Shown: positions 2,935 through 42,000 of the stretch, one piece after another
Layout of the letters: the number at the start of each line of letters is the position of its first letter
Numbering within the stretch: position 1 is the first letter of the stretch
Assembly: GCA_021404565.1 (NCBI GenBank)
Contig: JAAWWF010000006.1
Span: 1-64,000, forward strand
Direction of reading: 5' to 3'
Source of the DNA: Roseivirga sp.
GTDB lineage: Bacteria; Bacteroidota; Bacteroidia; Cytophagales; Cyclobacteriaceae
DNA length: 64,000 bases
The notes under the pieces: model-generated
Databases searched by the model: none
What the model was told of the DNA's origin: nothing
What the model saw: only the letters and a program-made list of their open reading frames with translations
Program-made: the position numbers and the translations under genes

Positions 2935-3068
2935 TTAAAACCATACCAGTTACAGCCGATTTTGACCTTGCATTGCATATTTTCATCCTGTTATTGTACC
3001 CTTTGAGTGAATTAGAATATGTGAAACGTAAATTGCTATCTTGATTGACCAAGACCTCTCAACCAAAG

Positions 3069-8358: not shown

Positions 8359-11300
8359 ATGGATACCATCTCAGACTCCTTTGTCGTAGCCAAGCCCATT
8401 TCCAGGTTTCTATCAGGGCTTCAACGAACCATGCTATTCACAGTATTACTCTTCTTCACTGTAATTGTCCAGTCACAAGAGGAGAGCCCGGCTTTTAGTG
8501 AAGGATCGAACATGGCCTATGTAGGTCCTGTTGAATCAACCGTTGGTATCAACAGCCTCAATAACCATGTAAACGCTTACGGCAGTGGTTTTACAGCGCC
8601 AGAAAGTACCACTATTGGTTATGTCAATTCGGATATCGATGTTTCAAATCCCCCTTGTGATGTCAGCTATACTGACGGGACAAGTTTGGGAGCTCTTGAT
8701 ACCTTCGGGCAGAGCTTCACGGCTACCTGTACCGGTAAGTTGAAGACACTGGCTTTTGCGGGGCACAGCGGAAATGCTCATAGTTTAACCATGACGGTTT
8801 ACAGTGGTGAAGGAACCACTACTCAACTGGGGCAACTTACAAGTCAGACTATTTCAGCCGGAACGCCAAATGCTACAGATTTCACCAGGGCCTCATTCGA
8901 TTTTTCCAGTCAGGGGATAGATATCGTAAATGGTAATCAATATACCTTCATCGTGTCCGGTGGAGCATATCAACAATATCTTAATAATGCTGGTACCTAT
9001 TCGGGTGGAAGAGGCTATCTGACCAACTCCTTTAACTCCTCATACGATTTTAATTTCAAAGTGGACATAGGGTCTGCAGTGAATGCAGTACCCACCTTTA
9101 CTTCTCTTTCAGGCCCGGTTGAAACAACAACTGAGGATACAGGTGTTGAGATTACCTTTGCCGAAATTGCCGCACAGGGAGATGAAGCTGATAGCGATGG
9201 AACGGTTGGTGCATTCGTTGTGCAGGCTGTGAGCACGGGAACTCTTACGATTAACGGAGCTAATTTTGCCACTGGCACCAATGATGAGATCACCGCAGCA
9301 AAATCAGCAATATGGACTCCGGCAACGAGTGCTAGTGGAGTACTCAATGCTTTTACAATCAAAGCTAAAGATAATGATGGGGGTGAAAGTGCTACAGCCA
9401 TACAAGCAACGGTAAATGTTTCTGGTCAGGCACCAGAAGTCTCCTGTAATAATACGCACGATGCCGGTACCAGCCTTTTTGGTCTCGATTCCTTCGGTCA
9501 AAGCTTTACAGCCACCTGTTCCGGGAAACTAACCATCTTATCAACAGCTAGCTGGACCTCAAACAATCCAACTTTGACCGTTACCTTGTACAGTGGGGAA
9601 GGTTTGTCTAACCAATTGGCTCAACTCACCAATCAAACCATAACCAACTCAGGGAACAGCCCTTATTCCAAAGATTTTGCTTCTACTGCCTTCGATTTTT
9701 CAAGCTTCAATATTGATCTGGTTAATGGTCAGCAGTATACTTTTCTGGTTTCGGGCAGTGGGCATCAGCAATATGCCAGCAATAGCAGTACTTATGCTGG
9801 TGGCCAGGGATACTACTCGGGGTCGTTCAGAGATGCAGATTTTAACTTCAGTGTTCAGGTAGGTACCGATAACTCTGCGCCCTCTTTCACTTCTGCCAAA
9901 ACAGAAAATTTTGCTGAAAACGGTACAGGTACTGTTTATACAGCTACTGCAACTGACAATGCACCAGTAAACTTCTCACTTGGCTCTGGAAATGACGAAA
10001 GCCTTTTCAATATCGTTGGTGGCGCAGTAACCTTTAAAAATACACCTGATTTTGAAAGCCCTCAGGATGGAGATACGCAGAACGATTATGTCGTCAACCT
10101 AATAGCCAAAGATGCCAACGGCAATACAGCCAATCAGAACGTGACCATTACAGTAACAGATGTAAATGAGAATACAGCACCCAGCTTTACCTCTACCGCA
10201 GTAATAGCAATTTTAGACAACCAAACCTACAGCTATACACCCACAGCCACCGATGCTGATAACGATGCACTTACCTTCACTGCGACAACCAAACCTAGTT
10301 GGTTGACCCTGAGAACACCTGATAATTTTAAAGTAAGCACTATCGCTGGTAATGGCAGTAGACCTTCTCCACCAATTAATGGTACAGGTACGGTCGCCAC
10401 ATTTTTGGAACCAGAAGCCCTGGTCACAGATTCTAATGGCAATATTTATGTTGCAGATACTCACCATCAGTTAGTGAGAAAAATAACCCCACAAGGCGTT
10501 GTTAGTACCCTGGCTGGCCAATATGGAGCCGGAGGACTTAGCGGTGTTGATGGTACAGGTACAAATGCCACCTTTGTGGGTTTAAGTACTCTCACCATTA
10601 CCAATACTGACATTATTTATGTAGCAGATAAAAGTATCATCAGAAAGGTGACAACGGGAGGGGTAGTGACAACATTTGCCGGTAATAATGATGCAGGTAA
10701 TACTGCTACCGATTTCCCTACAGATGGAACTGGAACGGCTGCCAACTTTCATGAAATTGATGCCATGGTGGTGGATGCCAATGGCAACCTCTTTGTAGGA
10801 GATAAGAACAATATCAATACCTCAGGAATCATCAGAAAAGTGACTCCTGCAGGGGTTGTCACAACATTAGCTGGTGGTCAGACAGGAGGTACCACAGGTG
10901 GTACAGGTACAGCTGCCCAGTTCACAATGCCGAGAGGGATGGATTTTGATTCTCAGGGAGTGCTCCATTTTGCGGATGCGAGTATAATCTACAAAATGGA
11001 TGGTAACAATGTAGTCACACCCATTGCCGGTTCTACAGGAGGCGCTCAGGACATTGATGGCACAGGTACCAGCGCAAGGTTCAACTTTATCAGAGGCATT
11101 GCCCTGGATTCAAAAGATGATATTTATGTGGTGGCAGGACCTAGCCAAAGAGTAAGAAAAGTGACGCAGCAGGGTGTTGTAACTACTCCAATAGGATTGG
11201 TGTTGGGTTTTTTAGATGGGTATGATAACGATGCCAAGTTCAACCAACCCTTCGGTATTCACATAGATGACAATGATGTGTTTTATATATCGGATAGGGA

Positions 11301-14300
11301 AAACGGAGCGATTAGAAAAATCGAAAAATCGGCTGTTTTATTAACAGGTGATCCGGCCAGCCAGATTGGCAACCATAATGTAACGCTCAAAGTAGATGAT
11401 GGTAATGGAGGAACGGCCGAGCAGACTTTTGTCGTGGCGGTTACAGCTCCTCTTGCTGTGTCTATTTCGGCTCAGTCTGATATTAGTTGCAATGGAGGCT
11501 CAGATGGTTCGGCAACTGCCGCAGGAGCGGGGGGAACCTCACCATATACTTATTCCTGGAATGATGGGTCGACAACAGCTACCGTCAATACCTTTTCGGC
11601 AGGAACTTACACCGTAACCGTAACGGACAATGCGGCCGCTACCACAACTACTACTGTTACATTAACAGAACCTGTGGCCCTGGGTGCCAGTGCTACGGTA
11701 GATTCCAATGTAAGCTGCAACAGAGGCTCCGATGGATCAGCTACCGCAGTAGGCTCAGGAGGAACAGCACCCTACACATATTTCTGGAATAACGGAGCAA
11801 CAACTGCTTCAATCACTGGTCAGACGGCCGGTACTTATACGGTAAGCATCACCGATGCCAATGGTTGTAACCCGGCAGTTGATCAGATCACGATCACCGA
11901 GCCTGCGGTTTTAGATGTCTCTGTTACAGGGCAAACCAATGTGTCTGCCTTTGGAGGTGCTGATGGTTCAGCCACGGCTCAGGCTTCGGGAGGTACTGCC
12001 CCTTATACCTATTCCTGGAATAATGGTCAGGTTGGAGCAACTGCCAATGGCCTGTTCGCGAGTACCTATACGGTTTCGGTAACTGATGCCAATGGATGCA
12101 ATCCGGCTATAACTTCAGTCACAATCACACAGCCTGCCAATAGTCTTCCGGTCTTTACATCTACTCCGGTTACTTCAATACTGGATAATCAGATCTATAA
12201 TTATCCGCTTACGGCTTCAGATGCCAACGATGAATTTTTCACTTTTACACTCACATCACCCACAGCACCAAGCTGGCTCTCTATTGTTACAGAGTACGAA
12301 GGGGAAGTAACCACATTTGCAGGTTCAGGCTTTGGAAGCCAACAAGATGGTACCGGAACCTCAGCAACATTTGCAAGCCCAAAAAGTGTGGCAACTGATG
12401 CGACCGGAAACATTTACATAGCAGAATCCGGAATAGGAGGGACACCCCTGATAAGAAAGGTTTCACCAGATGGTGTGGTAACAACCATAGCAGGTGGGGC
12501 CAGTGGCTATGTGGACGGCACAGGAACGAATGCCGGTTTCATCAGACCTTTTGGAATAGCCGTAGATGTTTCAGGTAATATTTTTGTATCTGATCTGGGT
12601 AGTACCAACGCCAATACGATCCGTAAAATCACCCCGGAAGGAGTTGTAACTACCTTTGCCGGATCAGCAGGGTTTTCAGGTAATACGGATAGCCACGGTA
12701 CTTCAGCCTCTTTTACGAGCCCCAAAGGCCTGGCTTTCGACAGCTCTGGAAATTTGTTTGTAGCCGATGGTTTCAATGTTAGAAAAATTACGCCTGACAG
12801 ATTCGTTACAACATTTGCCGGAACAGGCAGTGCCGGCTCAGCAGAAGGTACCGGCACCAGTGCCAGTTTTAACGAACCAATAGATATTGCCATTGATGGA
12901 TCAGACAATTTATATGTCAGTGATTACCTGAACAACAAAATCAGGAAAATCACACCAACTGGTATTGTAGGCACATTTGTAGGTACAGGTTCTCAGGGCT
13001 CGGCCGATGGACCGGGGACCTCAGCCACCTTCTATTTTCCATTTGGGTTGACATTTGACAACTCCGGGAATTTGTATGTGGCCGATTGGGCCAATGAGAA
13101 GATAAGAAAGGTCACACCAGGTAGAGTCGTGTCAACTTTCGCAGGGTCAGGCACCACAGGTTCGCAAGATGGTATCGGCACCTCAGCCAGCTTTAACTAT
13201 CCCGATGGAATTGCCTTCAATATTGACAATGCCATTTATGTAGGGGATGATGCCAATCACCTGCTGCGCAGGGTTTCTTTGGGCAGTGTAAAGCTTACCG
13301 GAACGCCAACATCAATGCTGGTTGGAGATCATAACGTTACCCTAAAAGTAGCCGATGGCAACAGTGGAACAGCAGAGCAATCCTTTATCCTCACTGTAGT
13401 CAAATCTAACACGGCCCCGGTTGTAGACCTGAACGGAGCTACAGCAGGCTTGACAACAGCGCATAATTACAACGAGAACTCCGAGATCAAATTCGCAACA
13501 GCTGGTACGGTTTCAGACAGTGATAATGACAATATCACCTCGATGACCGTTACCATCACCAATTCCACGCAGTCTAATGATGATCACTATGTGGCGATGG
13601 ATTTTCAGGCAACTGCTGAAAAAACTGCCGCTACTAATGCCGGGGTTACCATTGGTTTTATGAGTAATGGCGTGATGAACATTACAGGAGGCGCCTCAGC
13701 GCAGATTTATCAGGACATCCTCCAAAACCTTATTTACGGAAACAGCAGTGATGTACCCCCGTCTGAAACTTTCAATATAGAAGTAGTAGTAAATGATGGA
13801 ACCGTCAACAGTGCTACGGCAAGCAGTGCGATAACTATTATACCTCTGAATGATGGTTCTTCTGCCTTTGGTACCGGAAACGATCCGACTTTTACCGAAG
13901 GAGGGAATGCGGTCACCTTGTTTAGCAATATGACAGGACATACCCAGGAGGCAAACGAAACCATTACCGGCTTCAAATTCACGGTTACCAATGTAACCAG
14001 TAATTCAGGGGCAGATGAGAAACTGACAGTGGATGGAACAGCCATTGCCTTAAATAATGGCAACTCTGGTACCACTTCAGGTAATAACCTGTCTTATTCT
14101 GTCAGCATATCAGGTAGTACAGCCACAGTTAGTTTAAGCGGAGGCACCTTTACTGCATCAGCCTTCGCCACTTTGTTGGAAGGTGTGAAATATGAAAATA
14201 TCAATCAAAACCCATCCAATGCCAGTAGGGAAGTGACCTTAAGCGAAGTAACAGACAGTGGTGCGCAGGGTGCAGGCCATGATAATCCATGGGCGACCAA

Positions 14301-17300
14301 TCATGCTGTTTCAACCGTATCAGTAAGTCCTGTAAATGACCCTTCAGTATTCACCTCAGCTACCACGGCTAATTTTGCAGAAAACGGAACCGGTACTGCC
14401 TATACGATAACGGCTACAGATGTAGAGTCATCCAATTTTACTTACGCTTTGGGTACAGGAAATGATGAAGACAAATTCAACATCAATGGGAACCTGGTGA
14501 CATTCAAAACAGCTCCGGACTTTGAAAACCCAACAGATGGAGGTACCAATAATACCTATGTTATAGAAGTAAAAGTTACGGAGAACAGCTTGACTGTAAA
14601 TCAAAATGTTACGATTACGGTAACTGATGTTGTTGAGGATGTTACTAGTCCAGTACTCAGCACACCCACCGTATCTAATTTACAGGATTTATATTTTACG
14701 TTAAATCTGGATTTGGATGAATCAGGGACTGCATATTATGTGGTGGTGGCTGATGGTGCAAACGCACCTACTTCAGCAGAAGTAAAAGCAGGAACAGCCT
14801 CAGGAGGAGGTTCAGCAATAATCTCAGGAAATAAAGCTTTCAATGAGTCCCCGGAATTTTCAGGCATAGCACAAATAGCTGTATTAACACCAGTCACCAG
14901 TTATGATGTATATGTCGTTGCAGAGGATGTGAATGCGAACCTTCAGGCTATCCCAACAAAAGTAGATGTAACCACCGCAGTTTTGAGCCCGAACTTTAGA
15001 TGGACAACAGCTACACGTCCTTCTAACGGAACGGTTGCCGAAACTGTTAATGGCGTAACGGCAACAGTAACAACTTCTGGTACAGATGCTGATTTCGCAG
15101 ATGCTAGTAACGGATTGGGAACAATATTTAATCTAGTTGGTGCCACAGGTGTAAACGCATCTATGACTGTCACTTTTGATTCTCCCGTGAACTTGACAAG
15201 TATACAATTATTGTATTTAGCCCCTTCGGCCAATTGGTTATTAACACCTGCAGGAGGGAGTAACGCAGTAGTGAATTCAGGTGAATTATCTCCAGGTGGG
15301 AACGTAGTAAATGTCAATTGGATAGGGGTCACAAGCTTTACCCTCACTCTAGAAGGGGGAGGTACAACAAATTTTGGGATGGATGAAATTGTGGTGAATC
15401 CTAACTCAGCTCCGGTAGTCGATCTGGATGGAGCTACCAGCGGTTTTATCAATGAAAATGGAAGTATTGGTATTGCCGATTATGCTACCGTCACAGATGC
15501 CGACAATGACAATATTGTGTCGATGACCATCAGCGTGACAGGATACACAGGCACAAACGCAGATCAATATCTGGGTATCAATGGTGCCATAAATACCATC
15601 GCTACAAATGCCGGAGTAACCGTTGGTGCCTATGACACCAACACAGGAATCATGGCCATTACTGGTAGTGCAACTGCAGCCACCTATCAATCCATTTTGC
15701 AAGGCATTGTCTATGGCAACAATAGTGATACGCCTCCTGCAGGAGATGTAGTAATTCATATTGAAGTAAACGATGGTACAGTGAAGAGCAGTGATGTTAC
15801 GAACACAATCACCATTACTCCTGTAAATGACGAGCCTGTATTTACTTCTCAAGTGGTTACTTCAGTAAATGAAGGAGAGCCATATACATACAATTTTGCT
15901 GCAACCGATGTCGATGGAGATGCACTTTCTTTTACAACGCCAACCACTCCAAGCTGGTTAAGCCTTGTCAATGCTCCGGGAGGAATAGGCTCAGCCGTCA
16001 GTACATTCGCAGGCAACGGTACTGCCGGCAACCAGAATGGAACGGGGACCAATGCGATTTTAGACACTCCTGTAAGTTTTACCATCGATGCGAACGGTAA
16101 CCTGTATGCATTGACAAAAAGTGGCGAAATAAAGAAGATTACCGCTCAGGGAGTTGTAAGTACTTATTTAAGTCAGGTAATAAGTGGTATTACAGATGCG
16201 AGCTCGTCTCAGATGGATATAGATAGCAATGGAAACATCTATTATACGGTAGGAGATGCTACTGTAATGAAAGTCACTCCTCAAGGTGTCTCAAGCACTT
16301 TTATCGCAGATCCCAGGTCAGGTAAAAATCCTGAATTAGCGATCATTTCTGGTGGAAATTATTTTGTCATTGACAATAATGATGTCATGTACTTTCGATC
16401 ATTTAGTGGATTTTTAAAGATAGACCTAAACACCAATCAGGTTACGGAGGTTTTTGCCAATGGTCCATCTATGCCTGAAAGAGTTGGTGAAGATAATCAA
16501 GGTAATATCATCTTAACTGTCGTTGATTTGGCTGGTGTTGCCAATACCACGATTCAAAAACTGAATGGAGACAACAGCTTGACACTTTTACTTGATCTGG
16601 GTGCACCGACCATCATTGACGACCTGGTTTTTGATGCTTCGGGTAATATGATTTTTGTGGACAAAGCCGCTCACTTGGTTAAAACATATAATGCCACTGA
16701 TGGCATTGTTACTTTAGCAGGAGGAGCGGGCCAATCCTTAATAGATGGCACAGGTACGAGTGCCGGTTTTAACAAACCGATTTCTATTGAGATAGATAAT
16801 TCACAAAATCTATATGTTTTAGACGTTCTTAATCATGCCATAAGAAAAATCGAAGCTAACGCAGGGCAACAAAGCCTTTCAGGAACAGCTCCTTCTACGG
16901 CAGGCACCCACAATGTGGTTTTGAAAGCAGATGATAACAATGGAGGTACAGCCGAGCAGAGCTTCACCATCACGGTAAATGATGTGACAGACCCTGTCTT
17001 TACTTCAGCAACAGCAGTGAACTTTGCCGAAAATGGCACAGGAACAGCCTACACGGTAGTAGCGACAGATGCCAATCAGGTTACCTATAGTTTAGGAACA
17101 GGCAATGACGAAGGCTTATTCAATATCAATGGCGGAATAGTCACCTTCAAAAACGCTCCTGACTTTGAAGCACCGGCAGATGGGGATACCAACAATACTT
17201 ATGTGATCAATGTAATTGCAAGTGATGGTACCCATTCAGTCAACCAGGATGTCACCATTACTGTGACTGATGTCAATGAGAACGTTGCTCCGGTGTTCAC

Positions 17301-19656
17301 CTCACAGCCTGTCACGAGTTTAGAATTTGGAGAAACCTACAACTATGAGTTTGCGGCAACAGATGGTAATGGAGATGCATTGACTTTTACAGCCCCGACT
17401 TTACCAACAGCATTATCTTTAACATCCAGTGCGGGTAATGTAGTCTCAACAGTGGCTGGTGCTTCCACCGGAGGAAGCACAGATGGTACAGCCAGCTCAG
17501 CTACGTTTAATGAACCTCAGGATGTGGCCATAGATTCTCAGGGGAATTTGTATGTGTCAGACCTGGAGAACTATAGAATCAGGAAAATCACTCCTGCCGG
17601 GGTAGTGACCACCCTTGCCGGAGGGGGCAAGGGGCAATCGGATGGTACAGGAACAGCCGCAGCTTTCAGGGCAGTTAAGGGAATTGTAGTAGACAGCAAC
17701 GACAATATTTTTGTTGCCGATACAGATTCACACACCATTCGCAAAGTAACACAAGCGGGCGTGGTTACCAGCTTTGCAGGCACAATAGGCTCGGGAGGCA
17801 CTACCGATGGCACAGGAACCAATGCGCGGTTCAATATTCCGTATGGACTGACAATAGACAGTAATGACAACCTGTATGTTACGGACGCGCAAAACTCCGG
17901 AATTGTCAGAAAAATAACTCCGGCAGGGGTTGTAACGACTTTACCCTCAATAGGCTTTAATCAGGGTATCGGTATCATAGGTATTGCTGCAGATGTAGCC
18001 GGAGACGTATATCTTTCAAACCACATCTCTCAGAAAATCGTCAAGCTGGATGTTTCTGCAGGCACTACTTCAGACTTTGTATCGCTTGGCTTTAATCCTT
18101 ATGACCTGGCCTTCGATAAAGACGGTAACCTGTTTATTTCTGACGCAACAAATGCTATTTATGTCAGGAATTCATCCGGAACAGTATCTCTTTTAGCAGG
18201 AGGGACTACAGGCTCAACCGATGGGGCAGGCGCGGCAGCAGCATTTAATGCTCCCCTGGGTTTAACTACCGATGCTACCGGAAGTCTGTTCATAGCCGAG
18301 AGGGATGCCCATAATATCAGAATGATCGCAGCAGGCGGACAAAGAATCAGCGGTACAGTCAATTCGTTGGGAGACTTTAATGTTGTACTCCGTGCTGACG
18401 ATAGCAATGGAGGGGTAACTGAGCAGGCATTCACCATTACCGTCAGTGATAACACAGATCCATCCTTTACCTCTGTCACTACCGCCAGTTTTGCCGAAAA
18501 CGGCACAGGTACAGCTTATACCATAGCTGCCACCGATGCAAGTGCACTTACGTATAGCCTGGGCACAGGCAATGATGAGGGCTTATTCAATATTGCCAAT
18601 GGCCTGGTTACCTTCAAAGCTGCTCCTGATTTTGAGAATCCTACTGATGGTAACACTGATAATGACTATGTGATCAATGTGATTGCTACGGATGCCGTCA
18701 ATAACTCCAGCAATCAAAATGTAACCATTACCGTGACAGATGTTCAGGAAAATGTGGCTCCGGTATTCACCTCACAGCCTGTTACAAGTCTGGAATTTGG
18801 AGAAACCTACAACTATGAGTTTACAGCATCTGATGCTAATGGAGATGCATTGACTTTTACAGCACCGACTTTACCATCAGCTTTATCTATAACATCCAGT
18901 GTGGGGAATGTAGTCTCAACAGTGGCTGGTGCTTCTACCGGAGGAAGCACAGATGGAACAGCCAGCTCAGCTACGTTTAATAAGCCTCAGGATGTGGCCA
19001 TAGATTCTCAGGGGAATTTGTATGTGTCAGACCTGGAGAACTATAGAATCAGGAAAATAACTCCTGCCGGGGTAGTGACCACCCTTGCCGGAGGGGGCAA
19101 GGGGCAATCGGATGGTACAGGAACAGCCGCAGCTTTCAGGGCAGTTAAGGGAATTGTAGTAGACAGCAACGACAATATTTTTGTAGCCGATACAGATTCA
19201 CACACCATTCGCAAAGTAACGCAAGCGGGCGTGGTTACCAGCTTTGCAGGCACAATAGGCTTGGGAGGTACTACAGACGGAACAGGAACGAATGCCCGTT
19301 TCAATATTCCTTATGGACTGACGATAGACAGTAACGACAACCTGTATGTTACGGACGCGCAAAACTCCGGAATTGTCAGAAAAATAACTCCGGCAGGGGT
19401 TGTAACGACCTTACCCTCTATCGGCTTTGATCAGGGCAACGGTATCATAGGCATTGCTGTAGACGCAGCCGGAGACCTATACCTTTCAAACCACATCTCT
19501 CAGAAAATGGTGAATCTGGAGGCCCTTCTTCAGACTTTGCATCGCTTGGCTTTAATCCTTATGACCTGGCCTTCGATAAAGACGGTAACCTGTTTATTTC
19601 TGACGCAACAAATGCTATTTATGTCAGGAATTCATCAGGCACAGTATCTCTTTTAG
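8359..19656 (+). CDS. Giant T9SS gliding-type adhesin, N-terminal part (frameshifted)
   Basis: Secreted adhesin, 3765 residues as read. A long signal peptide (hydrophobic core about 26-40) precedes two copies of an unnamed ~140-residue module with FGQSFTATC (about 100-237 and 361-503) and cadherin repeats. Next are nested Ig/NHL-propeller modules at 10180-11448, 12139-13410, 15831-16980, 17281-18450 and 18751 onward; three SprB-type repeats (11449-12138, motif GGTAPYTYSWNNG ... GTYTVSVTDANGC); cadherin-like domains of the IYQDILQNLIYGN type; and an Fn3-like segment near 14641-15000. SprB is the gliding adhesin of Flavobacterium johnsoniae, and size and secretion route match. Compared with the upstream tandem copy, 10 bp are missing at about 19520, so the last ~44 residues are out of frame and the T9SS signal is lost. 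Restoring 10 bp would give one protein of 6075 residues ending at 26576. ATG 8359 is supported by the leader it shares with the third adhesin. Confidence 0.85.
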   Translation: MDTISDSFVVAKPISRFLSGLQRTMLFTVLLFFTVIVQSQEESPAFSEGSNMAYVGPVESTVGINSLNNHVNAYGSGFTAPESTTIGYVNSDIDVSNPPCDVSYTDGTSLGALDTFGQSFTATCTGKLKTLAFAGHSGNAHSLTMTVYSGEGTTTQLGQLTSQTISAGTPNATDFTRASFDFSSQGIDIVNGNQYTFIVSGGAYQQYLNNAGTYSGGRGYLTNSFNSSYDFNFKVDIGSAVNAVPTFTSLSGPVETTTEDTGVEITFAEIAAQGDEADSDGTVGAFVVQAVSTGTLTINGANFATGTNDEITAAKSAIWTPATSASGVLNAFTIKAKDNDGGESATAIQATVNVSGQAPEVSCNNTHDAGTSLFGLDSFGQSFTATCSGKLTILSTASWTSNNPTLTVTLYSGEGLSNQLAQLTNQTITNSGNSPYSKDFASTAFDFSSFNIDLVNGQQYTFLVSGSGHQQYASNSSTYAGGQGYYSGSFRDADFNFSVQVGTDNSAPSFTSAKTENFAENGTGTVYTATATDNAPVNFSLGSGNDESLFNIVGGAVTFKNTPDFESPQDGDTQNDYVVNLIAKDANGNTANQNVTITVTDVNENTAPSFTSTAVIAILDNQTYSYTPTATDADNDALTFTATTKPSWLTLRTPDNFKVSTIAGNGSRPSPPINGTGTVATFLEPEALVTDSNGNIYVADTHHQLVRKITPQGVVSTLAGQYGAGGLSGVDGTGTNATFVGLSTLTITNTDIIYVADKSIIRKVTTGGVVTTFAGNNDAGNTATDFPTDGTGTAANFHEIDAMVVDANGNLFVGDKNNINTSGIIRKVTPAGVVTTLAGGQTGGTTGGTGTAAQFTMPRGMDFDSQGVLHFADASIIYKMDGNNVVTPIAGSTGGAQDIDGTGTSARFNFIRGIALDSKDDIYVVAGPSQRVRKVTQQGVVTTPIGLVLGFLDGYDNDAKFNQPFGIHIDDNDVFYISDRENGAIRKIEKSAVLLTGDPASQIGNHNVTLKVDDGNGGTAEQTFVVAVTAPLAVSISAQSDISCNGGSDGSATAAGAGGTSPYTYSWNDGSTTATVNTFSAGTYTVTVTDNAAATTTTTVTLTEPVALGASATVDSNVSCNRGSDGSATAVGSGGTAPYTYFWNNGATTASITGQTAGTYTVSITDANGCNPAVDQITITEPAVLDVSVTGQTNVSAFGGADGSATAQASGGTAPYTYSWNNGQVGATANGLFASTYTVSVTDANGCNPAITSVTITQPANSLPVFTSTPVTSILDNQIYNYPLTASDANDEFFTFTLTSPTAPSWLSIVTEYEGEVTTFAGSGFGSQQDGTGTSATFASPKSVATDATGNIYIAESGIGGTPLIRKVSPDGVVTTIAGGASGYVDGTGTNAGFIRPFGIAVDVSGNIFVSDLGSTNANTIRKITPEGVVTTFAGSAGFSGNTDSHGTSASFTSPKGLAFDSSGNLFVADGFNVRKITPDRFVTTFAGTGSAGSAEGTGTSASFNEPIDIAIDGSDNLYVSDYLNNKIRKITPTGIVGTFVGTGSQGSADGPGTSATFYFPFGLTFDNSGNLYVADWANEKIRKVTPGRVVSTFAGSGTTGSQDGIGTSASFNYPDGIAFNIDNAIYVGDDANHLLRRVSLGSVKLTGTPTSMLVGDHNVTLKVADGNSGTAEQSFILTVVKSNTAPVVDLNGATAGLTTAHNYNENSEIKFATAGTVSDSDNDNITSMTVTITNSTQSNDDHYVAMDFQATAEKTAATNAGVTIGFMSNGVMNITGGASAQIYQDILQNLIYGNSSDVPPSETFNIEVVVNDGTVNSATASSAITIIPLNDGSSAFGTGNDPTFTEGGNAVTLFSNMTGHTQEANETITGFKFTVTNVTSNSGADEKLTVDGTAIALNNGNSGTTSGNNLSYSVSISGSTATVSLSGGTFTASAFATLLEGVKYENINQNPSNASREVTLSEVTDSGAQGAGHDNPWATNHAVSTVSVSPVNDPSVFTSATTANFAENGTGTAYTITATDVESSNFTYALGTGNDEDKFNINGNLVTFKTAPDFENPTDGGTNNTYVIEVKVTENSLTVNQNVTITVTDVVEDVTSPVLSTPTVSNLQDLYFTLNLDLDESGTAYYVVVADGANAPTSAEVKAGTASGGGSAIISGNKAFNESPEFSGIAQIAVLTPVTSYDVYVVAEDVNANLQAIPTKVDVTTAVLSPNFRWTTATRPSNGTVAETVNGVTATVTTSGTDADFADASNGLGTIFNLVGATGVNASMTVTFDSPVNLTSIQLLYLAPSANWLLTPAGGSNAVVNSGELSPGGNVVNVNWIGVTSFTLTLEGGGTTNFGMDEIVVNPNSAPVVDLDGATSGFINENGSIGIADYATVTDADNDNIVSMTISVTGYTGTNADQYLGINGAINTIATNAGVTVGAYDTNTGIMAITGSATAATYQSILQGIVYGNNSDTPPAGDVVIHIEVNDGTVKSSDVTNTITITPVNDEPVFTSQVVTSVNEGEPYTYNFAATDVDGDALSFTTPTTPSWLSLVNAPGGIGSAVSTFAGNGTAGNQNGTGTNAILDTPVSFTIDANGNLYALTKSGEIKKITAQGVVSTYLSQVISGITDASSSQMDIDSNGNIYYTVGDATVMKVTPQGVSSTFIADPRSGKNPELAIISGGNYFVIDNNDVMYFRSFSGFLKIDLNTNQVTEVFANGPSMPERVGEDNQGNIILTVVDLAGVANTTIQKLNGDNSLTLLLDLGAPTIIDDLVFDASGNMIFVDKAAHLVKTYNATDGIVTLAGGAGQSLIDGTGTSAGFNKPISIEIDNSQNLYVLDVLNHAIRKIEANAGQQSLSGTAPSTAGTHNVVLKADDNNGGTAEQSFTITVNDVTDPVFTSATAVNFAENGTGTAYTVVATDANQVTYSLGTGNDEGLFNINGGIVTFKNAPDFEAPADGDTNNTYVINVIASDGTHSVNQDVTITVTDVNENVAPVFTSQPVTSLEFGETYNYEFAATDGNGDALTFTAPTLPTALSLTSSAGNVVSTVAGASTGGSTDGTASSATFNEPQDVAIDSQGNLYVSDLENYRIRKITPAGVVTTLAGGGKGQSDGTGTAAAFRAVKGIVVDSNDNIFVADTDSHTIRKVTQAGVVTSFAGTIGSGGTTDGTGTNARFNIPYGLTIDSNDNLYVTDAQNSGIVRKITPAGVVTTLPSIGFNQGIGIIGIAADVAGDVYLSNHISQKIVKLDVSAGTTSDFVSLGFNPYDLAFDKDGNLFISDATNAIYVRNSSGTVSLLAGGTTGSTDGAGAAAAFNAPLGLTTDATGSLFIAERDAHNIRMIAAGGQRISGTVNSLGDFNVVLRADDSNGGVTEQAFTITVSDNTDPSFTSVTTASFAENGTGTAYTIAATDASALTYSLGTGNDEGLFNIANGLVTFKAAPDFENPTDGNTDNDYVINVIATDAVNNSSNQNVTITVTDVQENVAPVFTSQPVTSLEFGETYNYEFTASDANGDALTFTAPTLPSALSITSSVGNVVSTVAGASTGGSTDGTASSATFNKPQDVAIDSQGNLYVSDLENYRIRKITPAGVVTTLAGGGKGQSDGTGTAAAFRAVKGIVVDSNDNIFVADTDSHTIRKVTQAGVVTSFAGTIGLGGTTDGTGTNARFNIPYGLTIDSNDNLYVTDAQNSGIVRKITPAGVVTTLPSIGFDQGNGIIGIAVDAAGDLYLSNHISQKMVNLEALLQTLHRLALILMTWPSIKTVTCLFLTQQMLFMSGIHQAQYLF

Positions 19657-20210
19657 CAGGAGGGACTACCGGATCAACCGATGGTACAGGCACTGCAGCA
19701 GCATTTAATGCTCCCCTGGGTTTAACTATTGATGCTACTGGAAATCTGTTCATAGCCGAGAGGAATGCCCATAATATCAGAAAGATCGCAGCAGGCGGAC
19801 AAAGTTTAAGCGGTACAATCAATTCGCTGGGTGACTTTAATGTTGTGCTCCGTGCTGACGATAGCAATGGAGGAATAACCGAGCAGGCATTTACCATTAC
19901 CGTCAGTGATAACACTGATCCTTCTTTCACCTCAGCGACCGCTGTAAATTTTGCGGAAAACGGAACAGGCACTGCTTACACAGTAACAGCCACCGATGCG
20001 AACCAAGTAACTTACAGTTTGGGTACTGGTAATGATGAAGCCTTATTCGATATCAATGGGGGACTAGTCACCTTTAAGTCAGCTCCGGATTTTGAAACTC
20101 CAGGTGGTAATAATTCAGACAACACCTATGTAATCAATGTGATTGCTACTGATGCCAGTAACAATACTGCCAATCAGAATGTGACCATTACGGTAACGGA
20201 TGTGGATGAA
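17281..20210 (+). repeat. Tandem duplication with 1470-bp unit
   Basis: The unit [split Ig + NHL propeller + cadherin repeat] at 17281-18750 is repeated at 18751-20210. Long stretches match exactly at a 1470-bp offset, dropping to 1460 bp after about 19520 because of the 10-bp deletion. The propeller part is the most similar and the cadherin part has diverged more. Confidence 0.85.
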
Positions 20211-26576: not shown

Positions 26577-26612
26577 GAGTAGCACTATACTCAACAGCTG
26601 ACCTGTCTTATC

Positions 26613-26655
26613 AAAAAGGCGATATCCTTCTTCAAGGTGTCGCCTTTTTGTCATT
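26613..26655 (+). terminator. Rho-independent terminator after the second adhesin
   Basis: AAAAAGGCGA (26613-26622) pairs with TCGCCTTTTT (26640-26649), with an inner CCTT/AAGG stem. T residues run out of the stem. Confidence 0.85.
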
Positions 26656-26954
26656 TATCTTTTGCCCGACCGAGCGTCCTGCAACTGTTAGCTCAACTCA
26701 GACCCAATCACCAGAGTACCGGAAAAATCCCTGTTCATACCCAGTCATTTTGCCAATGACAGTATGAGTTCATCAGAAACTGTGCTGAATCCATAACCCC
26801 TGCTAACCGCCTATAAGCAACTTAGAGAGTCTGGTACAGTAATTCATTAGAAAAATAATATTTCAATAGTCTGAAACGAAAAACCAGGGTATATTCGTAG
26901 GTAACCAGCCAACCTGGCTGTAGAAAGATTTCATCATTGTAAATCTTCCGATTT

Positions 26955-27016
26955 GTGAATCCATTTTTGAGTGTAGATGGATTTGCCCTTTAAACGTTCG
27001 ACCAAAGCAGTATTTT
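26955..27016 (+). promoter_or_regulatory. Conserved leader of the third adhesin
   Basis: Counterpart of 8294-8358: GTGAATCCAT, T/G-rich stretch, GGATTTGCCC, GACCAAAGCAGTATTTT, then ATGGA. Almost the same length lies between GATTTGCCC and ATG in both genes (33 versus 32 nt or so). A promoter with a short untranslated leader is the simplest reading. Confidence 0.5.
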
Positions 27017-33000: not shown

Positions 33001-36000
33001 CGGATCTACAGGTTCCAGACAAGATATAGACGGTACAGGTACAAATGCCAGGTTTAACTTTATCCGGGGAATCGCCATTGACGCCAACGATGACTTATAT
33101 GTAGTAGCAGGACCGAGCCAGAGAGTGCGAAAAGTGACGCAGACTGGTGTGGTGACTACGCCCATTGGTTTGGTTTTAGGACTTCTTGATGGTTTTGATA
33201 ACACTGCTAAGTTTAATCTGCCATATGGTATCCATATTGACGATAACGATGTGTATTACGTGTCCGACAGAGCCAACGGAGCCGTTCGGAAGATAGTCAG
33301 GCCGGGTTATACCTTAACAGGTGATGCTGCGGGGCAATACGGAACTCACGCTGTGATATTGGATGCAAGCGATGGCAGGGGAGGTACAGCCCAACAGTCC
33401 TTTACCATCAACGTCACCGATGGCACACCTCCCGTATTTTCATCGGGCGCTAATGCCAATTTTGCCGAAAATGGTACTGGCACAGTGTATACCGCAATAG
33501 CCTCGGATGCTGTAAGCTCTGTGGTAAGCTATAGTTTGGGGAGTGGAAACGATGAAGCACTTTTCATGATAGACAGCAATACAGGTAGCCTCACCTTTTT
33601 AAGTCCTCCTGATTTTGAGAATAAGCTCGACCAGGGGAGTAACAATTTCTATGATGTAGATGTTATCGCCAGCGATGGAGCAAACGAAGCTACCATATCT
33701 GTCAGTATCCAGGTAACAGATGTAGACGAAAACCCACCGGTGTTTTTGTCCTCTAACGCAGCTGTCTTTGCAGAGAATGGAACGGGAACCGTTTATACCG
33801 CCAATGCCAGTGATATTCAAAACGTTACCTACAGTCTTGGAAATAATGCTGATGAGGCACTGTTCAATATCGATATTAATACAGGGGTTGTTATATTTCA
33901 GAGCCCACCTGACTTTGAAAATCCACAAGACAGTAATGGCGATAATGACTATTTGGTGGAAGTTCTGGCCAAAGATTCAGGCGAGAATGAATCAAGTATG
34001 ACGGTTACCATTACGGTGAGCAATCTAAATGAAACAACGGTATTTCTAAGTAGCCCTTTAACCACAGTTGCCAGTAATGAAAACTATCTTTCAGGAGTAT
34101 TGGCTTATGATGAAGATGGAGATCCGCTCACCATTACCGACACCCAAAAACCGTCCTGGCTTTCTTTGACTCCTAGTGTGGGGTATTCGGTATCAACTTT
34201 TGCCGGAGATGGCTCGGGTTCGCTAAATGGTACAGGTACAAATGCCCTCTTTAATTTGCCCGACAATCTGGGTGTTGACCATGATGGAAATGTCTATGTA
34301 GCTGCTAATGCTGAGATTCGGAAAATAACACCAGAAGGCGTGGTAACATCTTTTGTGGGGAGTCAGGGAGGTTTTGCCGATGGCACAGGTTCCGATGCCA
34401 GATTTAGTGCAGTAATGGGGCGCATGACCTTCGATGACCAAAACAATATGTACATAGCAGACCGTGTCAACGGGCGCATTCGTAAGGTCACTCCGGCAGG
34501 GGAGGTGACTACTTTTGCAGGTTCGGCCGGAGGAAGAACTTCCTCAGATGGCCCGAGGTTGACCGCCAGGTTTGATAACCCGATTGACGTTGAAATCGAT
34601 AGTCAGGGTAATTTCTTTGTAGTGGAATTCCTGGGAAACAAAATTAAGAAAATAGGAGCTGATGGTACGGCAACTACGTTCCTGACAGGTCTCAAGAACC
34701 CTACCGATCTCGTTATTGACGATGCTGATAATTTATATGTGACGGACCGCGGTAACAGACGGATTGTGAAAATCACTTCGAATGCGGTAATGACTGTATT
34801 GGCCGGGTCAGGTAGTCTCGGCTTTACCGATGGTACAGGTACCAATGCCTTGTTTGGTTCTCCTTCCAGTATCTTAATAGATCAGAATGGGGACTTTCTT
34901 GTAGGGGATAGCTTTTATCATAATCTCAGAAAAGTTACATCTGCCGGGGTTGTGACTACCATTGCAGGTACATCTGATTTGTCTGGCAGTAATGATGGTT
35001 TTGGTACAATGTCATCTTTTAATGAACCTGGCAGCCTTGCTATAGATGACAAGGGTAATATTTATTTAGCTGATTATCGAAATCATAGAATCCGCAAAAT
35101 TCAAAGGTATACCCACGAATTGTCTGGAGACCCATCGGGGCAAACAGGTACCCATGCCGTAACACTTAATGCATCAGATGGTAATGGAGCATCGGTGGAT
35201 CAGGTATTTACTATAACCGTCAACGATGTGGTAGCTCCGGTGGCTGTAGCGAAGAATGTAACGATACAACTGGACGCTAATGGTGGTGCTATCATTACAG
35301 CAGAAGATATTAACGATGGAAGTTCTGATAATGTAGGAATATCTTCTATTGCTGTCAGCAAAACGGCTTTTACCTGTGATGATCTGGGGTCAGGCACTAC
35401 GGTAACGCTCACTGTAACCGATGCTGCCGGCAATCAAAGTACTGATACCGCTGTAGTTACTGTAGAAGATAAGATTGCCCCCTCGGTTATTACCAAAGAC
35501 ATCACCATTGTACTTGATGATCAGGGAGCAGCCTCCTTTAATGATGAGGACATAAACAATGGAAGTTCAGATAATTGTGGAATCGCTTCCTTCGTAGCCA
35601 GCAATACTATTTTCAACAACAATGATATTGGAGAAAATGAGGTGACACTTACGGTTATGGATAACTCTGGAAATCAACAAACCGCTACCGCCACAGTGAC
35701 CGTGGCTCAAATAGCACAATCTATCACCTTTAATCCGTTGAGTACGGCTACCTATGGTGATGCAGATATTGACCTTACCGGAATGGCTTCCAGTAATCTG
35801 GCCGTTACCTATTCAAGCTCTAATACCGATGTGGCAGTTGTAAATGGTTCCAGTATAGAGATAGTGGGTGTAGGAAATACTACAATTACCGCTGCTCAGT
35901 CTGGTAATATTAATTATGAGGCCGCTGCTGATGTCGAGCAACAATTGACAGTCAATCAGCTCCCCCTTACGGTAACCGCTGATGAAAAGTCTAAGACTTA

Positions 36001-39000
36001 TGGCAGTGTCGAACCAGCGCTGACCTATCAGATTACGGCAGGTGCGTTGGTTGGAACGGATGTCATATCAGGGGCACTTTCCAGAACTGCCGGAGAGAAT
36101 GCTGGCACCTACCCAATTAATCAGAATACGCTTACCGCGGGAGCTAATTATGACCTCACCTATGTCAGCGAAAATCTGACAATATCCAAGGCCGTTTTGT
36201 ATGCTGTTGCAGATGATAAGGAAGCTGATTTTGGTGAAAATATACCGGTGCTGACCACCTCCTACTATGGTTTTAAAAATGGAGAAGATGTAGCTGCTAT
36301 ATCGCCTCCTGCCATTACCACCTCAGGCTCGGATAACTCCGGAATCGGGACTTACACAATCTCCTTATCAGGAGGATCAGCTACCAATTATGAACTCCAT
36401 TTATTTGGCGGTAAACTTTCAATAAATCGCTTCATTGCTGGTCAGGAGGAAACTTTGGTAGGTTCAGGTGGCTATGCTCCTGGTTCTGATTCCTGGGGTA
36501 CCAGTATCTTTGGAGTAAATCCAATCTCAAACAGTGCTGAAAATTGGTTCAGTTTTAACAATTCAAATGGAAGATTGGGCAACCCCAAATGGGGCGTAAC
36601 GGAATCTAATAATAAACTGTGGGGGACGACCTATGCAGGAGGAGATCACGATTTCGGTACTTTATTTACGATAAACAAAGACGGTTCAGATTTCGAAAAG
36701 AAGTTTGATTTTCCATCGAGTTTTTGGTATCCCAATAGCCCGTTAATTGAAAGCAATGGGTTTTTATGGGGAGTTTCGCTCGGAAATGTCGGCACGCAGA
36801 GTAATAACAGGGGAGTGATTTTTGCAGTAGATACAGCCACCGGCAGTGTCGGTATGGTGCATGAATTTAACGCTGATAAAAGCGATGGTTGGGCCCCCAA
36901 TGGATTGGTGGAAGTTGGTGACAAACTCTGGGGAATGACCCAATTAGGAGGAACTCATAACGCAGGTGTAATCTTTCATATAGATAATGATGGCAGCAAT
37001 TTTACGAAGGTACACGACTTTGAGGCTGGGAAAGGAGACCCGGAAGGAACATTGCTATACGCTTATGGAAAACTCTGGGGTACAACTAAAGGAACAAAGG
37101 TCGGATATCCGGCAACTCTTAATTCCAATGTTACTGATTTTGGAACTGTTTTCTCCATAAATACAGATGGCTCTGGTTTTGAGGTAGTCCATGAATTTAC
37201 CAAATCCAGCATTGCCCACTCAGACTTTTTAAATGGTAGAAATCCGGAGGGCAGTTTGGTTGCCTTTGATGGAAAAATATGGGGAATGACTCCTTTTGGT
37301 GGAAGTAGTATTTCGAATGGTGCTTATGGAGTAATATTTCAAATTGACCCTATAGAATTGGTTTATGAAAAAGTTCACAGTTTTACTGCAGGAGGAGGCA
37401 TTATTCCCAGGGGCAATCTGTATGTGTATGAGAACGCGCTTTGGGGTATGACATATGCCGGAGGTACGGTCAATAAAGGCACCGCATTTAAGTATGTTCC
37501 CGGTACATCGACTTTTACCAGTGTGCTTGATTTTTCTTCGGATACGGGTGGATTACCTTTGCACGGTGGCTTTTTGGGGGTAGTCAACACTCCTCCAACA
37601 ATAAAGAATGCTCTGGCCGATGTTTCATATTCTGAAGATGAGACTGCGCAGAGCATATCTTTACTCAATACCTTCAGCGACTTAGAGTCGGGTAATCTTA
37701 CCTATTCCATCCAGAATGTCACGAATAGCAGCATAATCTCAACGAGTATTGTCTCAAACAGTAGTTTATCGATAACCCCTGCCACGAATGCATTTGGTAC
37801 TTCAGTGGTTACCATCAGAGCAACCGACCCTCGGGGTCTCTTCACAGAATCTGATTTTACCGTTACAATAAACCCGGTAGCAGATACCCCGTCAGGAACA
37901 AATGCCACTACGACATATGGAAGTCAGACAAACAGTGGTTTGGTAATAACAAAAAATGAGGTCGATGGTCCGGAAGTATCACATTTTCAGGTAACAGAGA
38001 TTTTGAATGGCTCCCTCTATCTGAATAACGGTACTGATCAGATTAACGCTGGAGAATTTGTGACTTTTGATCAAGCCGTTAACGGGCTAAAGTTTACCCC
38101 ATTATCAGCAGGGGTAGGGTCCTTTAAAATTCAGGCAAGCACCGAGGGTTCATCAACTGGGTTGGGGGGAGATAAACAGCAGATAATCATCAATATTAAT
38201 AAGGCCGCTATTACTGTAACCGCTGATGACCTCAACAAAGATTTTGGCTCCGTTGACCCTGACCTTACTTTTAATATCACCTCTGGTGCTTTAGTGGGGA
38301 GTGATCGCTTTTCGGGAGATCTCATCAGAGATGTGGGTGAAACTCTTGGTCAATACGATATTAACATAGGTAACCTCACCGCTGGAGCGAGTTATGATGT
38401 AACCTATGTTAAAGGAACCTTCGAAATCCTCGACCTCACACCACCGGTGATAACATCAGGGGATACTTTCAGTGTTGCGGAGGGGAGTTCTGGTACGGTA
38501 TTTACAGCCCGGGCCACAGACCTGAGACCCCTTTCTTATACCTTGCAAACGGGTAATGACGCAGCGCTCTTCAGTATTACAAATGGAGCAGTATCTTTTC
38601 TTAGCCCTCCTGATTTTGAGAATCCTCAGGATGCCAACACTGATAATACCTACCTGATCAATGTAGTTGCCAGTGACGGGATCCACTCTGTCAATCAGGA
38701 TGTAACCATTTCAATAACCAATGTGAATGATAATGATCCGGTCTTCACTTCTCAACCACTTACATCCGTAGATGATAACCTTACTTATGAGTATAAGGTA
38801 GAGGTAGGTGATGCCGATGGAGACAATGTTTCAGTGACAGGAACAACCTTGCCAGACTGGTTAACGCTGACTACAAAAGATGAAGTGTCAACGCTGGCGG
38901 GTTCTGCATCCGGACTTGCTGATGGTACCGGAACGGGTGCTTCATTTTTCCTCCCTTTCGGCCTGGCTATCGATATCAATGGAAATATATACGTGGCCGA

Positions 39001-42000
39001 TAGCTTCAATAATCGTATCAGAAAGATCACAGCTGATGGAGTTGTTTCCACGATTGGAACTTCCGGTAGCTTTACTACTCCTATGGCCGTTACGGTAGAT
39101 GCAGATGGTAATGTGTATGCAGTTGGGGCAGGTAATAAGGTGCAGAAAATTACCCCGGATGGTACCGTCAGTACGGTAGCTGGTGGAAACAATGGCTTTC
39201 AGGATGGAACCGGTACTGATGCTCAGTTTAATGTTCCGAACGGCATAACGGTGGATCAGTCAGGTAACCTCTTTGTGGCCGATCAGCTCAATCATAGTAT
39301 ACGTATGATTACACCAGTTGGAGTAGTCACCACCATTGCTGGTTCAATCAATGCTGGCTTTGCTGATGGTACCGGCTCAGCGGCTTCGTTCAATTCACCC
39401 TCTGGTATTGCGGTGGATGCCTCGGGTAATCTGTATGTAGCAGATCAATTGAATCACAGCATTAGAAAGATTACGGCTACCGGTGTAGTAAGTACTATTG
39501 CCGGGTCGGGCACATCAGGTTTTGCAGATGGTACCGGAACCTCAGCCCTGTTTGCAGGGCCATTTGGCATAGCGATGGATAGATCTGGTAACTTGTATGT
39601 TGGTGATGAAAACAATAACCGTGTTCGAAAAATTGATGCGAATGGTGTCGTAAGTACTTTGGCAGGAAACGGTACAACCGGCAAGCTGGATGGAGCAGTA
39701 CAAGCAGCTACTTTTAACAACCTGAGAGGCGTAGCGGTCGGCTCTGATGGACTCATTTATGTTGCCGATCAGGGCAATAGTCTCATTCGCAAAGTGGCAA
39801 TCGGCACCATTACCTTAACAGGTAACCCCGCTGGGGAAAACGGAACTCATTCGATAGTGTTGATTGCTGATGATGGAGGTGGAAGAACTACATCACAGTC
39901 ATTCGATATCACCATAACAGATAAGACAGTTCCGGTATTCTCTTCTGAAACCACAGTCACATTTGCAGAAAATGGAACAGGAACCGCCTATACAGCAATG
40001 GCCGCTGATACAAACCCGGTGGCTTACAATCTGGGCTCTGGCAATGATGAATCGTTGTTTAATATTGACGGAACAAGTGGGGCAGTAACCTTCAAAGCTG
40101 CTCCGGACTTTGAGAAACCTAATGACAGAGATTGTGATAATATCTATGTAATTGAAGTCGAAGCTACGGATGGTAGTAATGAAAGTAGCCTGACTGTCTC
40201 ATTGACAATAACTAATGTCAATGAGAATCCAGTATTTTATAGTACACCGGTATTGTCGGTCGATGATAGTGAAACCTATAGCTATACTGTAGAGGTATCT
40301 GATCCGGACATAGATGATTTGACTGTGTTAGCTCAGACTAAACCTGCCTGGTTGAACTTAAGTCAAAATCCACAAACTCTGTTTACGGTGGCAGGCTCAA
40401 CCCCCTCTTTTTCTAATGGCACCGGAACTGAGGCAGCATTTTCGCAGGCAGCCTCTATTGTAGTCGGACCGGATAATAATATTTATATCGCAGACTGGTT
40501 TTGGAACAGGATAAGGAAAGTAACCCCTGAAGGTGTGGTGACAACCTTTGCGGGAAATGGAGTAAAAGCCTCAGTTGATGGAAGCCTTCTGACTGCTAGT
40601 TTCAGTCATCCGACTGGTATTGGTATAGATGAAGATGGAAACTTCTATGTGGTTGATAACGGGTCCAGCACCATTAGAAAAATTGATACCTCGGGGCAAG
40701 TTACCACAATAGCCGGTACAGGCACTGCAGGTGACACAGATGGCACAGGAACAAATGCTGCCTTGAACTTCCCTCAAAGACTTGGTTTAGATCAGAGTGG
40801 AAATATTTACATCCTTGATGTCGGGAATAATAAAATCAAGAAACTTAGCCCAACCGGAGAGTTGACTACACTGGCCGGTTCGGGTGCAGAAGGGTCGGCC
40901 AATGGCACGGGTACCGAAGCCACCTTCAGAATATTGAATGGACTGACTGTAGATAAGCAGGGCAATGTCTATACGACAAGTCAGAATAATGTTATCAGAA
41001 AGATAGACACGGAAGGGATCGTAACCACATTTGCAGGGTCAGGCGGTTATAGCCTTTTGGATGGAACCGGGACCAATGCCTCATTTGCCAATCCAGCCGG
41101 TCTTAGGTTGGATATGCAGGGTAATTTGTATGTGGCGGATAATGGTAACAACAGAATAAGAAAAATCGATAGTCAGGGTGTGGTAACCACCGTAGCGGGT
41201 AATGGTACTGGGGAGTCTGTTGACGGAACGAACGGATCTTTTAACCGGCCAATTGATATAGATTTTGACGAAAATGGAAATATCTATGTGATGGACTGGA
41301 CCCAGGGCAGGCTTAGAAAAATTGTAACAAACTCCTGGATATTAAGTGGTGATCCCACGGGGCAACTTGGAAAGCACGCTGTTTTAATTACCGCGAATGA
41401 TGGTAACAATGGAACGAGTCAACAATCTTTTGAGATTACAATAACAGATGGCACGGCTCCTGAATTGACTTCAGGAACAGTCGTGAATTTTGCGGAAAAT
41501 GGCACGGGCACAGCCTACACTGTAGCTGCCACTGATGCCAGTGATTTGACTTACAGTCTGGGTGCCGGCAATGATGAATCACTTTTCGATGTTGATGGAA
41601 CAAGTGGGGCCATAACTTTCAAAGCTGCTGCGGATTTTGAAAACCCTACCGATGGAACCAGTGATGGTACTTCAAATACCTATCTGATTAAGGTCATTGC
41701 CACCGATGCGAATAACAACAGTTCAAATCAGGATGTGACCATTGTGGTAACTGATGTTGATGAGATTGCCCCAACGGTACTCTTAACAGCTGCCACAACA
41801 AGCCCTGTGGCAGGAGCCTATACCGTAACTGCTCAATTCAGTGAGGATGTAACCGGCTTTGAACTTTCGGATATCACAGTCACAGGTGGCACGACTGGCA
41901 GCTTTGCTACCGTAGATGCCAATACTTATACTTTCTCCGTAACAAGCGTGGGAGAGGAAGCAGACGTAAGTGTTGCTGCGAGTCTCGCTAATGATTTGGC

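Follow-up and report, generated by a model that had tools for sequence, protein, structure and literature searches.

How is a β-propeller accommodated in the middle of another domain, and do the two separated pieces of that domain still belong to one fold? These questions are raised by a 64,000-nucleotide stretch of the genome of Roseivirga sp. (Cyclobacteriaceae, Bacteroidota; contig JAAWWF010000006.1, positions 1 to 64,000), hereafter the window. It encodes two giant adhesins, adhesin 2 and adhesin 3, each with a type IX sorting tail, and both carry modules in which an immunoglobulin (Ig)-like N-half is followed by one NHL β-propeller and then by an Ig-like C-half. We propose that each module is one He_PIG-type Ig-like domain with a six-bladed NHL propeller in one of its hairpins, that the Ig-like domain lies in the rod of the adhesin, and that the propeller, held off the axis, binds ligands with its outer face. 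We put the probability of this reading at roughly two in three.

Twelve modules with a common architecture

The presence of nested modules is confirmed. Twelve of them lie between 10177 and 41446, in the number and at the place given by an original prediction made from the DNA sequence alone:

M1, 10177-11445, forward strand: N-half 10177-10314, six-bladed NHL propeller, C-half 11341-11445
M2, 12145-13398, forward strand: N-half 12148-12285, propeller (six blades by profile), C-half 13291-13398
M3, 15832-16980, forward strand: N-half 15832-15969, propeller with degenerate blades (six by model), C-half 16876-16980
M4, 17287-18447, forward strand: N-half 17287-17424, six-bladed propeller, C-half 18346-18447
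M5, 18757-19907, forward strand: N-half 18757-18894, frame break at about 19521-19551, C-half 19806-19907 in another frame
M6, 22188-23306, forward strand: N-half 22188-22325, propeller (four blades by sequence), C-half 23202-23306
M7, 27359-28612, forward strand: N-half 27359-27496, six-bladed propeller, C-half 28508-28612
M8, 28625-29806, forward strand: N-half 28625-28762, six-bladed propeller, C-half 29699-29803
M9, 32153-33418, forward strand: N-half 32153-32290, six-bladed propeller, C-half 33311-33418
M10, 34034-35224, forward strand: N-half 34034-34171, six-bladed propeller, C-half 35117-35224
M11, 38735-39919, forward strand: N-half 38735-38872, six-bladed propeller, C-half 39812-39919
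M12, 40226-41446, forward strand: N-half 40226-40363, six-bladed propeller, C-half 41339-41446

Eleven of the twelve modules are intact, with lengths of 373-422 residues. The N-half (~46 residues) follows the pattern PVFTS ... TD.DGD ... P.WL.L and the C-half (~36 residues) the pattern LTG.P....G.H.V.L...DDGNGG...QSF.ITV. M5 is a near-copy of M4 that has lost its frame, by a true break or a sequencing error, and was excluded from every alignment. Hidden Markov models (HMMs) of the two halves, trained on the intact modules, find N-half then C-half in all eleven, 292-342 residues apart and with no stop between them.

The same spacing recurs in other sequences. Counting half matches of at least 8 bits, with a gap of 200-420 residues taken as split and one below 30 as contiguous, and with neither a stop nor a second N-half in between, we found 220 split modules in the fetched sequences (some present in both a protein and a locus), 183 of them with distinct half sequences. 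The insert has a median length of 331 residues and a 5-95% range of 312-341, and this narrow range within the 200-420 allowed rules out chance spacing of the halves.

Evidence for a single Ig-like domain

If the two halves belong together, they should be recognized as one domain once the propeller is taken out. Joined in this way, the halves of all six modules examined (M1, M3, M6, M8, M11 and M12) match He_PIG (PF05345) at 29.0-47.8 bits (cut-off 24), in a single stretch covering the profile, and score higher than when intact. By itself, the N-half of M8 has no He_PIG match, and its C-half scores 22. The intact forms of the same six modules score 20.8, 34.0, 30.6, 15.9, 21.4 and, for M12, give no match, as does intact M7. 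Five of the eleven intact modules (M3, M4, M6, M9, M10) pass the cut-off, and their best stretch never joins the halves, which makes the architecture invisible in domain lists; neither long open frame of adhesin 2 lists a He_PIG match at 0.001.

The joined form also occurs naturally. Our count gave ten uninterrupted members of this Ig family, in which the position of the propeller is taken by 4-14 residues; four of these copies are weaker, since two in P0031 and one in P0058 are partial matches from nearly identical sequences and another (L046) comes from outside the Bacteroidota, from an Opitutus metagenome-assembled genome (MAG). One uninterrupted copy and two split modules share an open frame in the Roseivirga sp. 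genome (L034), and in another genome (G010, L131/L156) two uninterrupted and two split copies lie in the same open frame with no stop between them. Both kinds are also present in P0075, P0077 and P0098. Judged by their nearest neighbours, the uninterrupted copies point clearly neither to loss nor to ancestry, and the PDB relatives of one such copy were weak and mixed (best E 6.6e-06, an endofucoidanase).

In addition, the halves covary across the insert. In a mean-field coupling analysis of 164 modules (of the 183 unique ones, after a gap filter), the top pair overall connects the N-half Asp of TD.DGD (M8 residue 26) with the C-half Asp of.DDGNGG (M8 residue 379), at 8.9 standard deviations and ~350 residues apart. 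Both Asp are present in 145 modules, one only in 1 and 4, and neither in 14 (one of which has a gap on both sides). Relatedness inflates the coupling figures, and the effect persists among 104 representatives at 60% identity (87, 1, 4 and 12; Fisher p 1.3e-11). At a guess, the two Asp might contribute to a shared calcium site. The divergence of one half correlates with that of the other at 0.41, and with that of the propeller at 0.25 and 0.34 (maxima of 60 permutations 0.08-0.11).

These results bear on a simpler arrangement, in which the propellers are strung like beads, each flanked by two half-length Ig-like pieces (or small domains) that differ from one another and share no fold. Contiguous IPT/TIG-like domains do stand between the propellers of the relatives L172 and L173, and none of the 50 PDB entries listed for the M8 model has a clear nested Ig, in a comparison that covers mostly residues 48-358 and makes this absence no evidence in itself. 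However, the pieces are ~46 and ~36 residues long, He_PIG is matched over its full length only when they are joined, the joined form exists in nature, and the halves covary. We therefore consider beads on a string highly improbable. On the basis of the Pfam joins and the coupling across the insert, we also reject two unrelated half domains. The interpretation of both halves as one Ig domain, already put forward in the original prediction, is supported by the joins, the uninterrupted copies, the coupling, the correlated divergence and the model strands found in both halves, as described below.

The propeller insert

The number of blades per copy, which the original prediction had proposed to count, is six in nine of the eleven intact modules by a blade profile (built from five blades and used at a low threshold of 3 bits; the weakest blade, in M4, has 3.4 bits). 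M3 and M6 have four each by this profile, and M3 has six by model strands. In M1, the match of the last blade runs to profile position 38 of 41 and overlaps the start of the C-half; in the other modules it ends at 30-34. Pfam NHL repeats exceed the gathering score in ten of the eleven (M3 is below, 16.0 versus 20), and TEN_NHL exceeds its cut-off of 27.1 in nine.

Modeling with AlphaFold2 gave M8 a predicted local distance difference test score (pLDDT) of 94.0 and a predicted template modeling score of 0.82, with Ig strands in both halves (pLDDT 77-96 there). For M8 and M3 alike, 24 strands are assigned to the propeller, equal to six four-stranded blades. The strand lists agree with a closed propeller of six blades placed between Ig strands.

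Could the propellers be surface-displayed enzymes of a lactonase-, lyase- or esterase-like kind? The SGL family is above its cut-off of 26.3 in M4, M8, M10, M11 and M12 (31.5-47.3 bits), arylesterase (cut-off 21.3) is passed in M8 and M11, and PhoX (24) in M2 and M11. We give this possibility slightly more weight because M11 also matches Vgb_lyase, at 57.0 (cut-off 50). However, Vgb_lyase stays below the cut-off in the other modules that it matches, most matches span one or two blades (SGL covers residues 71-160 of M8 and 132-161 of M4), and they are common to different enzyme families, as any blade repeat would give. An enzymatic role is thus improbable.

Proposed anatomy and working of a module

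Domain order and blade count are established at the level of sequence, and the geometry that follows is a proposal. The whole propeller would sit in the hairpin that links the 'WL.L' and 'LTG' strands, replacing a turn of 4-14 residues. The chain right after the N-half ('VSTLAG') would supply the fourth strand of the last blade. Such a closure, as read from the sequence and the strand lists of the models, would bring the ends of the propeller side by side, so that it fits as a loop insert. With the blade strands in the order A, B, C, D and the junction between C and D of the last blade, we infer that the Ig domain joins the propeller face where the A-B and C-D loops lie, the D-A and B-C loops being on the opposite one. 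The Ig domain would stay in the rod, and the propeller, attached via the face bearing the C-D loops, is probably held out from it. The opposite face, with its D-A loops and variable B-C loops, would point outward and bind ligands such as polysaccharides or surface proteins. With many discs, an adhesin could gain avidity or several specificities.

Loop variability is partly in line with this arrangement. Mean entropy is 3.10 bits in B-C loops (24 positions), 2.33 in D-A (95), 2.08 in C-D (21), 2.02 in A-B (30) and 1.82 in strands (133), and the share of positions above 3.3 bits is 0.46, 0.29, 0.05, 0.30 and 0.06, respectively. These values agree with a variable, outward-facing surface for the B-C loops and, to a lesser degree, for the D-A loops; they are no proof of binding. 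Alternatively, the propellers may serve as structural spacers that lengthen, stiffen or mask the protein without binding a ligand. The propeller has no known ligand, one copy (M5) is broken in frame, and the agreement between loop variability and a binding face is partial, all of which speaks for a spacer. Nevertheless, an insert in a side loop would probably add little rod length, the B-C loops are the most variable class, and the same Ig domain exists uninterrupted within the same proteins. A pure spacer role is therefore unlikely, although it deserves more weight than an enzymatic one.

Several points weigh against our proposal of a propeller-bearing Ig domain with an outward binding face. 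The He_PIG passes of the five intact modules come from single halves or blade overlaps. A reversed-order control also scores 33.3 on He_PIG, but in two stretches, which a local profile search would be expected to give; the score alone is therefore not proof, and what counts is the single spanning stretch. The joined halves of M1, M3 and M8 pass Big_9 as well, which leaves the assignment to one exact Ig family provisional. Of all pairs between the halves, the Asp pair alone exceeds the highest value of 30 shuffles, which do not preserve relatedness. The D-A loops of the presumed outer face are slightly more variable (2.33) than the A-B and C-D loops (2.02, 2.08), and very variable positions are equally frequent in D-A (0.29) and A-B (0.30) loops. 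The models were read as strand lists, which show Ig strands in both halves but not how these strands pair. The best Foldseek match is a teneurin-like protein, whose NHL propeller is part of a different assembly. Lastly, the ligand, the orientation and the 'sideways-facing binding discs' of the original prediction are all inferred.

Occurrence in other genomes

The Roseivirga sp. genome (8.57 Mb) holds 43 matches at 1e-40 or better, 38 of which, counted from the match list, span the whole module (from position 10 or lower to 408 or higher). At least 12 of the 19 genomes of the genus, including this one, have a full-length match, and seven have none among the matches listed. The number of modules per protein reaches ten (P0012). 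Among 80 contig loci, the half HMMs find the architecture only in a Prolixibacteraceae MAG (L044), with two modules. It is present in 25 of the 240 proteins among the matches listed (120 of 648 and 120 of 7961 above threshold), of which P0016 and P0029 belong to the Roseivirga sp. genome. P0100, with three modules, lies outside the genus. In a phylum sample of 395 genomes, at least 33 (again including Roseivirga sp.) have a match at 1e-30, and the full-length form was seen only in Roseivirga sp.; this sample undercounts, with four candidates scored per genome (4 of 118 in Roseivirga sp.). A match in genome G276 that reaches positions 15-386 (L171) has no N-C pair by the half HMMs. These models miss divergent forms, as nested copies were found by eye in L174 and in parts of P0031. 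With one of 80 loci and 25 of 240 listed proteins, we reject the idea that the architecture is general in NHL proteins.

A separate observation concerns P0021, P0031, P0042, P0043, P0057 and P0082, several giant proteins of one further organism, outside the genus, with divergent nested propellers; their precomputed Pfam lists contain no Por_Secre_tail.

It is possible, and we suggest it tentatively, that the modules are a display cassette: a split Ig-like domain bearing a propeller, amplified to about forty copies in one genome as a repertoire of outward faces that diversify on a conserved Ig mount and blade core. Such a cassette would have an origin separate from that of the split domains of type-I-secreted adhesins and be common to at least one further lineage. 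More generally, the modules extend the split-domain rule, used to recognize ligand-binding domains in type-I-secreted adhesins, to giant proteins that bear type IX sorting tails. They also supply a sequence signature for finding presumed binding domains in giant genes with poor annotation. Should the propellers bind ligands, a single cell could display dozens of different discs.

Host adhesin genes and their surroundings

The modules are distributed over three open reading frames (ORFs):

Adhesin 2, first part, 8359-19656, forward strand: ORF of 3765 residues with M1-M4, the start of M5, and SprB and cadherin-like repeats
Adhesin 2, second part, 19431-26576, forward strand: open frame from stop to stop with the end of M5, M6, cadherin-like and Big_13/Big_12 repeats, and Por_Secre_tail
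Adhesin 3, 27017-44140, forward strand: ORF of 5707 residues with M7-M12, FG-GAP_2, MBG_2, a Big_13 array and a type IX sorting tail

Five modules start in the first, one in the second and six in the third, which agrees with the earlier assignment. Por_Secre_tail is found at the C termini of adhesins 2 and 3 at 48.1 and 50.9 bits (cut-off 27), in adhesin 2 confined to the second frame, and both have a hydrophobic stretch near the N terminus by eye. The neighbours of the modules along the chain are cadherin-like and other Ig-like repeats. Between M8 and M9 (~30650-31850), an FG-GAP_2 match and similar repeats seen by eye are perhaps a second kind of propeller in the adhesin 3 chain.

Three adjoining giant genes (8-2857, 19431-26576 and 27017-44140) end in Big_13 arrays and similar type IX sorting tails, which suggests a tandem adhesin family. 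Between two adhesin genes, 3045-6935 encodes a hybrid two-component sensor (Y_Y_Y, histidine kinase, receiver and LuxR-type DNA binding; Reg_prop slightly below cut-off), a possible regulator.

Comparison with known systems

The NHL propeller of teneurins is part of a YD-repeat assembly. The teneurin-like protein 9ifo has a propeller close to those described here in sequence and fold (35% identity, E 4e-23). However, no YD-repeat shell is seen beside the propeller: in the scanned stretches, which do not include 27017-27358, 33419-34033 and 39920-40225, no YD/RHS family reaches its cut-off, and M10 has one RHS_repeat match at 14.4 bits (cut-off 22). Other NHL propellers of known structure (the quenching protein 7djj, NHLRC2, TRIM71 and Pizza6) are not listed inside an Ig domain, judging by aligned ranges and titles. 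The Bacteroidota loci L172 and L173 likewise have many NHL propellers per giant chain, but their interleaved IPT/TIG-like domains, named by eye, are contiguous, and the half HMMs find no N-C pair in them.

In Vibrio, the biofilm adhesins Bap1 and RbmC use a β-propeller that binds biofilm polysaccharide, and they have a nested adhesive element (PMC12965690). A β-propeller in an adhesin and nesting are features in common with our modules, and the available part of that paper describes no propeller-split Ig domain.

The closest parallel is provided by RTX adhesins, type-I-secreted proteins in which Ig-like 'split domains' project ligand-binding domains (PMC12077191, PMC10865825). According to the available parts of these papers, the chain of AhLap, FrhA and MpIBP leaves an Ig-like domain partway through, forms a ligand-binding domain whose ends lie next to each other, and then completes the Ig fold, so that the inserted domain projects from the axis of the adhesin. 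The cargo includes a carbohydrate-binding module, an RTX roll, PA14 and a peptide-binding domain, and AhLap has two Ig-like split domains. The word 'propeller' is absent from the main text of both papers, and 'Bacteroid' from that of PMC12077191. Like these adhesins, our modules have an interrupted Ig-like domain from which a cargo domain buds; unlike them, they combine a type IX sorting tail with an NHL propeller cargo and occur up to ten times per protein. We do not claim membership of the RTX family, as Por_Secre_tail stands at the C terminus in place of RTX repeats and a type I signal, and no RTX family is among the Pfam matches in the scanned stretches of the adhesins. Among the open-access publications listed by our searches, no title or beginning of an abstract mentions a propeller inserted in an Ig-like domain. 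The 'distinct adhesin building block' of the original prediction holds for the propeller version, and the principle behind it had already been published for RTX adhesins. As far as these searches show, what is new is the propeller cargo, a type IX sorting tail where the RTX adhesins use type I secretion, and the high copy number.

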